Assembly: GCF_000686525.1 (NCBI RefSeq)
Contig: NZ_JMKT01000009.1
Location: 186,001-250,000, forward strand
Direction: 5' to 3'
Source: Desulfonatronovibrio hydrogenovorans DSM 9292
GTDB taxonomy: Bacteria > Desulfobacterota > Desulfovibrionia > Desulfovibrionales > Desulfonatronovibrionaceae
DNA length: 64,000 nucleotides
Shown here: in pieces, positions 41,000 through 46,658 of the stretch
Position numbering within the stretch: position 1 is the stretch's first letter
How the letters are laid out: every line of letters starts with the position of its first letter
The notes under the pieces: generated by a model
The model's database searches: none
Told to the model about the DNA's origin: nothing
Seen by the model: the letters and a program-made list of their open reading frames with translations, nothing else
Made by a program: the position numbers and the translations under genes

Positions 41000-43294
41000 T
41001 CATCTGACTTTGTAGACCCTTGGGCCGGTGTGAGTGTCCTCCAGACGAAAACCAAGCTCTGTGAGCTTCTGTCTCAGCTGGTCAGCCAGGACGTAATCCC
41101 TGTTGTTCCTGGCTGTTATTCTTTCCTGTATTAGCTGAGACAGCCCGGCTGGGAACTCATTTTCGGCCAGAGGCAGATTGTTCCAGTCCAAAATACCCAG
41201 AATATCATCAATATCTTTTAAAGCTTCCAGACAGGCATCAGCTTCAGCCTGGCTCAGCTGGAGAGCTTGGGATACCTTCCTGATTTCTTTGCAAAAGGAT
41301 AGAAGATCAGGCCAGAATCTGTATATTGAGAGATCATCTTCCAGGTGTCTGTCCAGGCTTTGCCTCAGTTCAGTGCACTTTTTGATGATTGTTTCTCTTG
41401 ATTCCCCGTCCTGGTCAAACCTGCCTGACTTCAATATGGCATAAAGATCCTGGACTTTGTGCCAGTTCTTCATCCACATGTTCAGACTGGGTTCCGAAAA
41501 AATCAGACTTTTATGGTATGATGCAGACAGCAGCCATAGCCTGAGGGCCAGATAACCGGTTCCCTGGGAAAACAGGTCATTGAGTCCCGGCAGTAAGGAT
41601 GTACCTGGCTCGGGTCTGACAGCCTGGGCCAGCATCCAGCACTGGGGAATCAGGTTCATGGCACCCTGCCAGAGGCTTTTCAAATTATCCAGGTGGGGGA
41701 AGAAATGAGCTTCTCCACCAAGAACCAGGTCCAGGTGAGATTCCCGGGCTGAAGCAGCCATCTGGAGATACCATGAGGGACGGACATTGCCCCATCTGGT
41801 TTTAAGGACATTATCCTCTTTGAGATCTTTCAGGCTGGCCCGTTTAAGCAGAGTGAAATCCCTGGGGCTGTCTTTGACATAATCTTCCAGGTCCACGGTC
41901 TTGCCCGAAATAATGGACTCAGGATCAATGCCTGATAAATGTCCGTATTCAGCATCCCGGCCAACATCGAAATAAACCGAGCGCAGCTTTTCATAGGCCA
42001 GGCCTTTGGATAACAGTCTGGAGCAGATCTGTACTCCTTTTTCCAGGTTGGCCGAGGCTGGAACAAATCTAAATTCTTTACTCAAGTTGAGTTCAGCTGC
42101 CAGGTTCTCAAGAAGATCTATGGATCGACTGCTGAACTCCTTAAGACTCATTCCTTTTTTCCGGACAGCTTCCAGGGTCCGGTCATCAAAGTCAGCCACA
42201 GCGACCGCTGGCTTTGACTGATCACCTTTTTTTACCAGAAATCGATGGACCACATCCAGGAGTACTGCCCTTCTCCAAAAATCAGGATCATCCGGAAAGT
42301 CTGTTCTGGGCCCTATGGTAAATAAAACAGGCTTTTTGGCAGTACTCTGCATGGATACCTTGGTCCGGGAGCGTAAATCAAAGATCTTGATCCCGCCCTG
42401 ATCAGGGGAACTGAACAGGGCAGTGCTCAAATATCTTTCTCCGCTGTCCGGGAAAATTGTGACAATCGTACCCTGGTCGATCATTTTGGCCAGCTCAAGT
42501 GACCCGGCCATGGCGGCTCCCGAACTCATGCCTACAAAAAGCCCTTCTTTTTCAGCCAGTTCCCGGCACATGGCAAAAGCATCCTGGTCCTTGACGTGAA
42601 TAACCTGGTCCAGAAATTTCTTGTCATATATTCCAGGAGGGTATGACTCCTGCATATTTTTGAGACCCTGAATCTTATGGCCTGGATAGGGCTCAATGCC
42701 TATACACCGGATTTCTGGATCGATCTCTCTCATCTTCCTGGTAATGCCCATGATGGTCCCGGTGGTACCCAGACATGCCGCCACATGGGTGACCTCTCCT
42801 CTGGTCTGCTCCCATATTTCAGGTCCAGTTGTCCGGTAATGGGCTTCAATGCTGGCCGGGTTATTGAACTGGTCCATGAGCACATACCGGTCAGGTTCTT
42901 CCCTGGCCATGCGGTAGGCTTCTTCTATGGCTCCATCCGTGCTCAGATGCCCTGGAGTCAGAACTATCTCGGCCCCGTAAGCCCGCATGATTTTTTTCCT
43001 TTCTTCTGAAGCAGCCGAGGACATGAGCAGCTTGATGGGATAACCCTTTACCGCACAGACCATGGCCAGACCAATGCCGGTATTTCCGGACGTAGCCTCG
43101 ATGACGGTCTTGCCGGGAACCAGGTCTCCGGTATTTTCCGCCCGCTCAATCATGGCCAGGGCTACCCTGTCCTTGACCGAACCCCCTGGATTCTTCATTT
43201 CCAGCTTGGCCAGAATCTTGACCTTGGGATTGGTGGAGATGTTCCTGATTTCCACCAGAGGAGTGCTGCCGATAAGAGAGAGGAGGTTGTTCAT
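41000..43294 (-). CDS. cysK: cysteine synthase fused to a degenerate cysteinyl-tRNA synthetase
   Basis: 764 residues. Residues 1-300 are an O-acetylserine sulfhydrylase with PLP lysine K41 (NPGGSVKDR), the T68-S-G-N-T-G phosphate/substrate loop, GTTGTIMG and S284 (DSGERYLS). Residues 302-764 follow the whole length of CysRS, but its catalytic signatures are lost. The HIGH region reads TDFPDDPDFW, the zinc cysteine of the WHIEC motif is methionine (WYLQM), and the E of FPHHENE is lost (FPHLDNL). Nothing like KMSKS remains where expected (PGTSLLPG). The C-terminal end, IQERITARNNRDYVLADQLR, is well preserved. The synthase should be active, while the second half is probably a regulatory, tRNA-binding or complex-forming module. 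The start lacks a clear ribosome site. Confidence 0.92.
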   Translation of the reverse strand: MNNLLSLIGSTPLVEIRNISTNPKVKILAKLEMKNPGGSVKDRVALAMIERAENTGDLVPGKTVIEATSGNTGIGLAMVCAVKGYPIKLLMSSAASEERKKIMRAYGAEIVLTPGHLSTDGAIEEAYRMAREEPDRYVLMDQFNNPASIEAHYRTTGPEIWEQTRGEVTHVAACLGTTGTIMGITRKMREIDPEIRCIGIEPYPGHKIQGLKNMQESYPPGIYDKKFLDQVIHVKDQDAFAMCRELAEKEGLFVGMSSGAAMAGSLELAKMIDQGTIVTIFPDSGERYLSTALFSSPDQGGIKIFDLRSRTKVSMQSTAKKPVLFTIGPRTDFPDDPDFWRRAVLLDVVHRFLVKKGDQSKPAVAVADFDDRTLEAVRKKGMSLKEFSSRSIDLLENLAAELNLSKEFRFVPASANLEKGVQICSRLLSKGLAYEKLRSVYFDVGRDAEYGHLSGIDPESIISGKTVDLEDYVKDSPRDFTLLKRASLKDLKEDNVLKTRWGNVRPSWYLQMAASARESHLDLVLGGEAHFFPHLDNLKSLWQGAMNLIPQCWMLAQAVRPEPGTSLLPGLNDLFSQGTGYLALRLWLLSASYHKSLIFSEPSLNMWMKNWHKVQDLYAILKSGRFDQDGESRETIIKKCTELRQSLDRHLEDDLSIYRFWPDLLSFCKEIRKVSQALQLSQAEADACLEALKDIDDILGILDWNNLPLAENEFPAGLSQLIQERITARNNRDYVLADQLRQKLTELGFRLEDTHTGPRVYKVR

Positions 43295-44401: not shown

Positions 44402-44428
44402 AGGGCATGCAACCTGCCCTATTTTTTT
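44402..44428 (+). terminator. intrinsic terminator after the EamA transporter gene
   Basis: AGGGCA (44402-44407) pairs with TGCCCT (44415-44420) around a 7-base loop, then ATTTTTTT. It separates the transporter gene from the B12-binding/kinase operon, which begins 13 bases further on. Confidence 0.75.
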
Positions 44429-44441
44429 AATCCAAACAGCC

Positions 44442-45086
44442 ATGATCACAGAAAAATTATATAAGCACTATATGCAATGCCTTCTTGAAGGTGACCGAGC
44501 CCAGTGTTTCAAGATAGTTAAAGAACTCCTGGAAAAGGATGTCCCAATTCATGATCTTTACCTGGGCTTGTTTCAAAAATCATTGTATGAGGTTGGCGAG
44601 CTCTGGGAAAACAACCGGATATCAGTTGCTGTAGAACACATGGCCACTTCCATCACCGAGAGTCTGCTCACTCTGGCCTATCCAAGAATTTTTGCTGCTG
44701 AACACAACGGCAGAAAAGCTGTTATTTCCTGCATAGCCAACGAATTCCATCAGATCGGCGGAAAAATGGTGGCAGACTTTTTTGAACTCAACGGCTGGGA
44801 TGGGTACTTTCTGGGTGCCAATACTCCTGCATCTGAAATGATGGATATTATCCATCATAAACAGCCGGATATGCTTGCACTTTCATTAAGTATCTATTTC
44901 AATATGAATTCTTTGTACCAGATTCTTGAACTGATAAAAAAGGCCCATCCAGGTCTGAAAGTCATAGTCGGGGGACAGGCCTTTCAATGGGGAGGAAGGG
45001 ATATCAGCAGCAGGTTTCCAGGGGTTGAGTATGTTGCCTCGATTTACCATCTGGAAGCCCTTCTGGAAAGTTATGAGCCAGCTTAA
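44442..45086 (+). CDS. B12-binding protein with CarH-type photoreceptor motifs
   Basis: 214 residues. Residues about 1-85 form a helical cap domain, with the Wx9EH motif W55...E65-H66 that in CarH-type photoreceptors packs against the upper face of adenosylcobalamin. Residues 92-212 form the cobalamin-binding Rossmann domain with E101-x-H103-x2-G106 (EFHQIGG), the lower-ligand motif, followed by LSLSIYFNMNSLYQ and VIVGGQAF. There is no DNA-binding domain, unlike CarH. It overlaps the next gene, a histidine kinase, by 14 bases, so the signal probably passes to that kinase. Methionine synthase-like methyl transfer is an alternative, but no methyltransferase genes are nearby and the Wx9EH motif argues for sensing. 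The ATG has a poor ribosome site. Confidence 0.88.
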   Translation: MITEKLYKHYMQCLLEGDRAQCFKIVKELLEKDVPIHDLYLGLFQKSLYEVGELWENNRISVAVEHMATSITESLLTLAYPRIFAAEHNGRKAVISCIANEFHQIGGKMVADFFELNGWDGYFLGANTPASEMMDIIHHKQPDMLALSLSIYFNMNSLYQILELIKKAHPGLKVIVGGQAFQWGGRDISSRFPGVEYVASIYHLEALLESYEPA

Positions 45087-46227
45087 AGCATCCATTTTTT
45101 CTGGCCATATCCTGAGTGAATACCTGCTTCAGGAATCAGCCGTCTTGATTCTTGTTTTGGACAGCCAGGGTTTAATAGTTGAAGCAAACAACTATGCCCT
45201 GAATATTGTTGGTCAAGATATCAAGGGCAAGGACTTCAATCAGGTTATTGTCGACTTTTCTGAAAATTTTAATTTTCAGAAAATCATGGCTGAAAACAAT
45301 CAGACCCACCTGCTGAATATTTCCTCTTACACCGGCCTGCCTCAGACGTTTTACTTCAGATTTTTGAAACATGGTGACAAAATTATTGCTGTGGGCGAAC
45401 TCAACCATCTGGAAATCGAGTCCCTGCGAAAAAGCCTGATCGACCTTAATAATGAGTTCAGTAATCTCAACCGTGAGCTGCAAAAGAAAAATGCTGAATT
45501 GTCCAAACTCAACCAATTAAAGAATCATCTTCTGGGTATGGCCGCCCATGACCTGCGAAATCCCATAGGGGCCATTGACAGCCTTAGTGAATTTTTACTG
45601 GAAGAAGCTGGTCCAGAGTTGACCCAGGAACATATCCAGTTTTTACAGGCCATTCAAAGTTCCAGCAGATTCATGCTCAATCTTCTGGACGATCTGCTGG
45701 ACGTAGCCAAAATAGAGGCAGGCAGGCTTGACTTAAATATCCAGTCTGCTGACCTGGCTGCCCTTACAAGGTCCTGGATCGCCCTTAACCAGGTCATGGC
45801 CCAGAAGAAAAAAATCCGTATTGATCTTCATCAGGATGAAAGCCTGCCCTTGGTCCCTTTGGACTCAATGAAGATCGAGCAGGTCATGAACAATCTCTTG
45901 TCCAATGCGGTCAAATTTTCTCCGTCAGGCACAGTAGTTAAAGTAAGTGTGTTTTTAAATTCTGAACAGGTTACAGTGGCTGTTTCTGACCAGGGTCCGG
46001 GAATTCCTAAGGATGACCTTAAAAAAATTTTTCAACCTTTTACCAAGACCAGCGTAGCCTTGCCTGAAGGAGAAAAGAGCACAGGTCTTGGTCTGGCCAT
46101 TGTTCAAAAAATAATCAAGGGGCACAAGGGAAAGATCTGGGTGGAAAGCGAGCCTGGAAAAGGCTCGACATTCTACATTTCTCTACCTTTGACAGACAAG
46201 AATAAAGATGGAGTCCATGAGAAATGA
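45073..46227 (+). CDS. soluble PAS-containing histidine kinase
   Basis: 384 residues without membrane segments. A PAS-like domain (about 20-112) leads to a coiled coil (115-150), HisKA with H159 (MAAHDLRNPIGA), and HATPase with N box MNNLLSNAVKF, DQGPGIP and STGLGLAIVQ. I start at the ATG at 45073, 2 bases after GGAAAG, which gives a 14-base overlap with the B12-binding gene. The open frame extends 16 codons further upstream but would lie deeper inside it. There is no receiver domain and no response regulator gene here. It is also coupled (ATGA) to the next gene. Its input is probably the B12-binding protein. Confidence 0.92.
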   Translation: MSQLKASIFSGHILSEYLLQESAVLILVLDSQGLIVEANNYALNIVGQDIKGKDFNQVIVDFSENFNFQKIMAENNQTHLLNISSYTGLPQTFYFRFLKHGDKIIAVGELNHLEIESLRKSLIDLNNEFSNLNRELQKKNAELSKLNQLKNHLLGMAAHDLRNPIGAIDSLSEFLLEEAGPELTQEHIQFLQAIQSSSRFMLNLLDDLLDVAKIEAGRLDLNIQSADLAALTRSWIALNQVMAQKKKIRIDLHQDESLPLVPLDSMKIEQVMNNLLSNAVKFSPSGTVVKVSVFLNSEQVTVAVSDQGPGIPKDDLKKIFQPFTKTSVALPEGEKSTGLGLAIVQKIIKGHKGKIWVESEPGKGSTFYISLPLTDKNKDGVHEK

Positions 46228-46658
46228 ACAGACAAGAACTTATTGAAAGGGCTGCCCGGATCACCCCCCCTTCCATCAAGTCGGCTTCAGAGTATGGGGA
46301 AAAAAGCCAGATTATGGCAGCTGAGCTGAACATGATCATGTCTGCCAGGCCGGATCTGGATAGCCTCATCGGGAAAAACAACCGGGACATGATGGAGGAC
46401 AATCATAGAAACCATGCCAGGTTTATTTCATCCTTGATTCTTGATTATCGTCCTGACGTGCTGGTTGATACAGTCATCTGGGTATTCAGAGCCTACAGGG
46501 CTCATGGGTTCAAACTGACTTACTGGCCAGCCCAGCTGGATATCTGGGTCAATGTCCTGAAAAAACACCTCTCCCAGGACGCTTATCAGGAAATTTATCC
46601 CATATATGACTTCATGATCGTCAACCAGGCCCTCTTTGCCCGCTTGAGCACCAATTAA
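46224..46658 (+). CDS. small helical protein of unknown function in the B12/kinase operon
   Basis: 144 residues, predicted all-helical, with DYRPDVLVDTVIWVFRAYRA and WPAQLDIWVNVLKK. The pattern (a helical bundle with an L-V-D-x-x-x-W-x-F helix) faintly recalls helical regions found next to B12-binding and kinase domains in other bacteria; this is an impression and not a firm match. The ATG overlaps the kinase stop by 4 bases, so it is made with the kinase. Candidate roles are kinase adaptor, phosphotransfer protein or partner of the B12 protein. No conserved histidine context typical of HPt domains is clear. Confidence 0.8.
   Translation: MNRQELIERAARITPPSIKSASEYGEKSQIMAAELNMIMSARPDLDSLIGKNNRDMMEDNHRNHARFISSLILDYRPDVLVDTVIWVFRAYRAHGFKLTYWPAQLDIWVNVLKKHLSQDAYQEIYPIYDFMIVNQALFARLSTN

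Follow-up and report, generated by a model that had tools for sequence, protein, structure and literature searches.

What do a B12-binding protein, a soluble histidine kinase and a small unannotated protein sense when they are encoded together in Desulfonatronovibrio hydrogenovorans DSM 9292, which belongs to a genus of haloalkaliphilic anaerobic sulfate reducers? The three genes lie on contig NZ_JMKT01000009.1 within a stretch of 64,000 nucleotides (positions 186,001 to 250,000), which is called the window in the following and to whose first letter all coordinates refer. The original prediction was that light or the cobalamin state is passed from a B12 sensor to the kinase, with the third protein acting as an adaptor in a system that could not be named. 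Our analysis bore out the cobalamin pocket of CarH type, the stand-alone B12 subunit, the soluble kinase dedicated to it and the conserved synteny, while the unnamed adaptor is replaced by a predicted globin. On balance, we lean towards the view that the three genes encode a photocobilin-like sensor divided between two polypeptides, which would be coupled to its own histidine kinase by light-driven loss of the adenosyl group of adenosylcobalamin (AdoCbl). The locus resembles a photocobilin whose two parts have become separate proteins; photocobilins are photoreceptors that have already been described (PMC10979010).

Organization of the three-gene locus

All three genes are located on the forward strand. 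The B12 protein gene (44442-45086) encodes 214 amino acids comprising a four-helix cap (PF02607) and a Rossmann B12-binding domain (PF02310). Pfam detected only B12-binding (6.7e-18) and B12-binding_2 (3.6e-15), which agrees with the claim that the product is a stand-alone B12 subunit devoid of a DNA-binding domain. It is followed by the gene of a soluble sensor histidine kinase (45073-46227; 384 amino acids), made up of a PAS-like domain, a signalling helix, HisKA and HATPase_c. The last two domains were recognised by Pfam, while the PAS domain remained below the threshold; in the AlphaFold model, residues 13-110 form a PAS-like alpha/beta domain running into one long helix. H159 resides in a conserved HDLRNP-type box of HisKA, and a membrane segment was not apparent in the kinase. 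The third gene (46224-46658) encodes 144 amino acids. Inspection of the start and stop codons confirmed that the B12 and kinase genes overlap by 14 bases and the kinase and third genes by 4 bases (ATGA), as had been stated.

In the gap that separates the B12 gene from the transporter gene preceding it, a terminator-like hairpin followed by a T tract was identified (44402..44430, forward strand). It is more likely to close the preceding unit than to act as a leader. As a leader attenuator the hairpin was discarded; its folding energy is ordinary and nothing obvious was seen in two relatives. A search of 40-48 kb of the window disclosed neither a cobalamin riboswitch nor another Rfam element. 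Farther upstream, on the reverse strand (41000-43294), a single frame of 764 residues was noticed by eye, whose N-terminus is cysteine synthase-like and whose end resembles cysteinyl-tRNA synthetase.

The predicted cobalamin pocket of the B12 protein

Among proteins of solved structure, the best matches of the B12 protein were the photocobilins SasPcob (8j2w, E 1.4e-22) and AbPcob (8j2y, 1.4e-17), followed by the more weakly related corrinoid protein 1y80 (6.8e-11) and CarH (5c8a, 7.9e-06). The cap motif W55-x9-E65-H66 (44604..44639) and the cobalt-ligand motif E101-x-H103-x2-G106 (44742..44759) are present at the residues given in the original prediction. All cofactor residues of SasPcob are matched in the alignment: W55, E65 and H66 correspond to Trp61, Glu71 and His72, and H103 to the lower ligand His108 (an offset of +6 converts the chain index to the author numbering of PMC10979010). 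In 47 related B12 domains, W55 and H103 are invariant, while E65, H66, E101 and G106 are each conserved in 46. The residue after the cap Trp is a glutamate both in the window protein (E56) and in 45 of the 47 domains. At this position CarH has His132, which forms the bis-His light state of that protein. With Glu in its place this state is unavailable, so that the light state of the photocobilins, with water or hydroxide on the cobalt, is the closer model.

In the tree, the B12 family and the photocobilins are set apart from MetH and 1y80 with a support of 98/90, and the nearest relatives of the window protein include that of the phototroph Halorhodospira abdelmalekii. The genome also encodes a BtuR-type adenosyltransferase (PF02572); PF01923, another adenosyltransferase family, was not found in it. 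From sequence comparisons, the B12 protein is thus predicted to possess a CarH-type cobalamin pocket whose probable ligand is AdoCbl.

Light-responsive B12 domains have been characterised by the motif set GxxW, EH, GxxH and GxxxP (SignatureFinder; PMC11796333). The window protein contains all of these except GxxH, whose G is replaced by N100. The same substitution by Asn occurs in 38 of the 47 related domains, and a strict search including GxxH would therefore miss most of the family. The published survey (PMC11796333) probably overlooked it for this reason, and surveys of this kind may have undercounted the family.

The third protein as a predicted globin

By sequence, the third protein gave no meaningful match in Pfam (including PF00502), NCBIfam or the PDB. 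Its AlphaFold model, which was built from 15 natural sequences, reached a mean pLDDT of 96.6. The leading Foldseek matches of this model were allophycocyanins and globins with a probability of 1.00, none of them having an E-value below 0.001. Structural comparison yielded VIA Z values of 14.3 for the heme globin of DosC, the closest match, 13.5 for smURFP, about 12-13 for allophycocyanins, and 11.6 and 11.4 for the photocobilin globin domains of 8j2x (residues 227-346) and 8j2w, respectively; such values are close to the range that helical bundles reach by chance, and the fold is not decisive by itself. The profile of the family matched that of the heme-oxygenase-linked globins described below weakly (hhalign E about 8e-4, probability 24-26%). 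As this match, the fusions to B12 domains and the exchange of partners in other genomes point in the same direction as the fold, we concluded that the third protein, according to the model, belongs to the globins and is akin to photoglobins and phycobiliproteins. An otherwise unannotated family of small proteins that is conserved across phyla thereby gains a name and a structural model.

Four residues (N60, F67, W86 and Y91) are invariant in 39 sequences of this small globin. Two histidines of one helix, H61 and H64, are found in 34 and 35 of them, respectively, and no His or Cys is invariant. The placement of residues within the globin rests on alignments and on spacing: N60 and W86 are 26 residues apart, exactly like Asp270 and Trp296 of SasPcob (PMC10979010).

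Synteny, fusions and exchange of the globin partner

To judge the conservation of the gene set, 28 B12-centred loci of other genomes were used, which had been gathered without reference to the globin. The small globin gene adjoins the B12 gene or is one gene off in 14 of these loci, and 27 contain a kinase-like frame on the same strand within 2.6 kb. The set is therefore not due to chance, in line with the synteny that had been expected. The 14 loci show the order B12-kinase-globin or B12-globin-kinase and span Thermodesulfobacteriota, Bacteroidota, Planctomycetota, Gammaproteobacteria (Halorhodospira) and an archaeal Methanofastidiosum metagenome-assembled genome (MAG). Kinases of the B12-kinase-globin loci and of the heme-oxygenase loci are 37-59% identical to the window kinase over the full length including the PAS region. 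Some loci (L009, L012-L014, L024, L027 and L029) have the B12 and kinase genes with no globin gene nearby, so that the globin may not always be needed. In the genus g205 the globin gene stands alone, with the B12-kinase pair at another place. At six further loci (L074-L079) a small globin gene was seen with no recognised B12 or kinase gene nearby, most of these genomes having a B12-kinase pair elsewhere.

In other Desulfobacterota, the globin domain is fused N-terminally to the B12 domain (e.g., L035-L038, L040, L041, L056 and L058-L062; 13 globin domains were sampled). A PAS-GGDEF gene was observed directly after such a fusion at L035, L036, L037, L038, L056, L058, L059, L061 and L062. Apparently, the same sensor feeds there into c-di-GMP signalling in place of a kinase.

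A different globin was encountered at L008, L010, L011 and L017, where a protein of 445-501 residues combines an N-terminal heme oxygenase (PF01126) with a C-terminal globin-like domain; L016 contains the latter domain alone. The fusion genes are located at L008:4625-6001, L010:4450-5952, L011:1041-2375, L017:6546-7970 and L070:22-1485, and those of L008, L010, L011 and L017 adjoin a stand-alone B12 gene, usually together with a PAS kinase gene. The fusion protein, of which we found no description in the literature searched, may both make biliverdin and hold it. At L069, the same kind of C-terminal domain is fused to a B12 domain next to a heme oxygenase gene. This domain matched allophycocyanin (2.8e-4) and, just under the cut-off, PF00502 (2.6e-4), and its family could be aligned weakly with the photocobilin globin, placing its Trp on Trp296 of SasPcob. 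Through this chain of matches, the C-terminal domain of the heme oxygenase fusions is taken to be a photoglobin-type globin. Both globin types alternate across the B12 tree: L055 and L034, where the small globin occurs, form a group with L008 and L010, which have the heme-oxygenase globin (100/98), and L007 groups with L011 (89/88). Such swapping of partners within a single B12 clade speaks for a common function of the two globins.

Two loci deviate in their gene structure. One of them, L030:1354-2473 of an Eisenbacteria MAG, adds to the 14 loci a related globin copy with an internal deletion. Its B12 gene is shortened, and the kinase frame passes from the HisKA region directly into the last part of the globin, which looks like a loss of the intervening DNA, through decay or mis-assembly. 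In Geofilum rubicundum (L019:4603-6627), a kinase frame runs into a B12 domain upstream of the globin gene and a second kinase gene; either a fusion or a frameshift may account for this.

The Asn/Asp switch and the distribution of heme oxygenase

Asn60 (46401..46403) is aligned with the Asp that holds the bilin in photoglobins (Asp270 of SasPcob). It is present in all 39 small globins, fused and free, whereas seven of eight canonical globins have the Asp at this position. By contrast, Trp86 (46479..46481), the counterpart of SasPcob Trp296, is shared by all small (39/39) and canonical (8/8) globins; both results were obtained in three MAFFT modes. Trp296 of SasPcob contacts the bilin as well as the corrin, and AbDPcob, which has His at the position of the bilin Asp, binds biliverdin poorly and is nevertheless light-switched through AdoCbl (PMC10979010).

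Searches of the window genome for heme oxygenase PF01126 and the bilin reductase PF05996 detected neither family. A match to HutW was below the cut-off and was set aside, as it is probably HemW. In the 29 genomes covered (28 related genomes and that of the window), PF01126 was found in seven. It occurs in seven of the eight genomes with a strong canonical-globin match and in none of the 21 others (Fisher p 5e-6, a value that arises partly by construction, since canonical globin and heme oxygenase are fused in several genomes). Among genomes with the small globin, one of 17 contains PF01126, as compared to six of 12 without it (p 0.01), although the samples lack independence and some of the MAGs cover their genomes only in part. 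The single exception has its heme oxygenase separately, together with a canonical globin-B12 locus (L069).

As Asn60 has taken the position of the bilin-holding Asp and PF01126 was not found in the host, the small globin most likely works without biliverdin. The three-gene system is probably an AdoCbl light sensor independent of this bilin, light perception and cobalamin binding both being predicted. More tentatively, and less likely than not, it could represent a widespread, biliverdin-independent, kinase-coupled photocobilin system of two proteins, in which cobalamin is the sole chromophore or another, oxygen-independent tetrapyrrole is held. If so, strict anaerobes would have a light sense, and heme-oxygenase-linked and heme-oxygenase-free versions would be swapped on one B12 clade. 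The Asp-globin with heme oxygenase and the Asn-globin without it offer a natural comparison that could reveal what the bilin contributes to a B12 photoreceptor.

Proposed mechanism and alternative explanations

Drawing on the observed gene structure, homologies, predicted fold, conservation, synteny, fusions and heme oxygenase pattern, we propose the following course of events. The B12 protein would bind AdoCbl with H103 below the cobalt and W55, E65 and H66 above it, and would form a head-to-tail dimer. The small globin would dock on it, with W86 lying at the corrin edge like Trp296 of SasPcob, and would serve as a structural and signalling partner without biliverdin. Breakage of the Co-C bond, most simply by green light, would release the adenosyl group, whereupon the helix carrying E65 and H66 would move and the B12-globin assembly rearrange. 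The rearranged assembly may finally touch the soluble PAS kinase directly and thereby alter how active it is. Control in trans has a precedent, as a stand-alone photocobilin was reported to control a cyclase domain by protein contact in vitro (PMC10979010).

Some findings weigh against light as the signal. Many carriers of the genes live anaerobically, and the source of some MAGs is apparently sediment, where light is possibly scarce. The same B12-globin-kinase assembly might instead report the state or supply of AdoCbl, or oxygen or redox conditions via the cobalt, an explanation that we regard as the main rival, though a less likely one. In this case, the apo, adenosyl and oxidised forms would give different B12-globin-kinase complexes. 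For the likely anaerobic carriers, among them the Desulfonatronovibrio host, Syntrophobacteraceae and the Methanofastidiosum MAG, light is no obvious cue, and the activity of AbDPcob already varies between its apo form, its AdoCbl form in the dark and its light form (PMC10979010). However, the adenosyl-facing residues W55, E65 and H66, which are nearly invariant in this family, mark characterised light-responsive domains (PMC11796333), and the occurrence of the phototroph Halorhodospira abdelmalekii among the nearest relatives speaks for light too.

It also weighs against the preferred reading that the small globin is only weakly connected to the photoglobins by sequence and has DosC as its closest structural match, and that no function follows from the globin fold as such. 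A globin that binds heme and turns the unit into a sensor of gas or redox state, to which the B12 protein would contribute a second input, would fit the DosC match as well as the frequent H61 and H64. We consider heme binding improbable, since the invariant residues include neither His nor Cys and since fusion and partner exchange associate the small globin with B12 domains and bilin-type globins. Hardly credible is a role of the B12 protein as a corrinoid carrier for a methyltransferase with the kinase as an incidental neighbour. The similarity to corrinoid proteins that would suggest it is weak (1y80, see above; NCBIfam matches far below the cut-off), the tree separates the B12 protein from 1y80 and MetH, and the recognised neighbours in tens of genomes are kinase, globin, heme oxygenase or diguanylate cyclase genes; the methyltransferase neighbourhood that would have spoken against the original prediction was not among them. 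A light-responsive, photocobilin-like sensor of two proteins remains the reading that we prefer.

Relationship to known cobalamin photoreceptors

Photocobilins, photoglobins and B12-globin gene pairs have been published. In the literature searched, a split photocobilin-like pair with a dedicated histidine kinase is new, although the 2022 photoglobin survey may list such neighbourhoods. The same applies to the Asn-type globin subfamily in genomes mostly free of heme oxygenase, to its exchange with the heme oxygenase-globin fusion and to the presence of the system in anaerobes, on which that survey may overlap. The system would link B12 photobiology with two-component signalling in anaerobes, and since its cobalamin and globin subunits are distinct proteins, such a sensor in two parts could serve optogenetics.

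The photoglobins of Schneider et al. 2022 (doi 10.1016/j.csbj.2021.12.022) are reportedly globins without heme that work together with B12 domains in signalling. Likewise, the family found here would join a probably heme-free globin to B12 domains; it is not detected by Pfam and only weakly related in sequence. The photocobilins SasPcob (8J2W) and AbDPcob share with the window system a B12 domain of the CarH type that agrees in its cofactor residues (W-x9-EH, E/DxH), the globin partner with a Trp at the corrin edge and, in one known case, the control of a separate enzyme in trans (PMC10979010). They differ in that B12 and globin domains reside on one polypeptide, while the window has separate genes, which are fused in other Desulfobacterota. 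Moreover, the window output is a histidine kinase, the bilin Asp is replaced by Asn and the host has no detected PF01126. The BBAG-2 globins, which bind biliverdin, contain an RGMC Cys motif and occur in a genome with bilin reductase and heme oxygenase, are also encoded next to a separate B12-protein gene, while no kinase is mentioned for them (PMC10151467). CarH/LitR proteins have the cap W-x9-EH and the cobalt-ligating His in common with the window protein, which lacks their MerR-type DNA-binding domain and has Glu instead of the bis-His histidine of CarH. The corrinoid proteins of methyltransferases differ by their separate position in the tree. AerR/PpaA is another B12-binding photoreceptor acting on a separate protein, the partner being the transcription factor CrtJ (PMC6199135).
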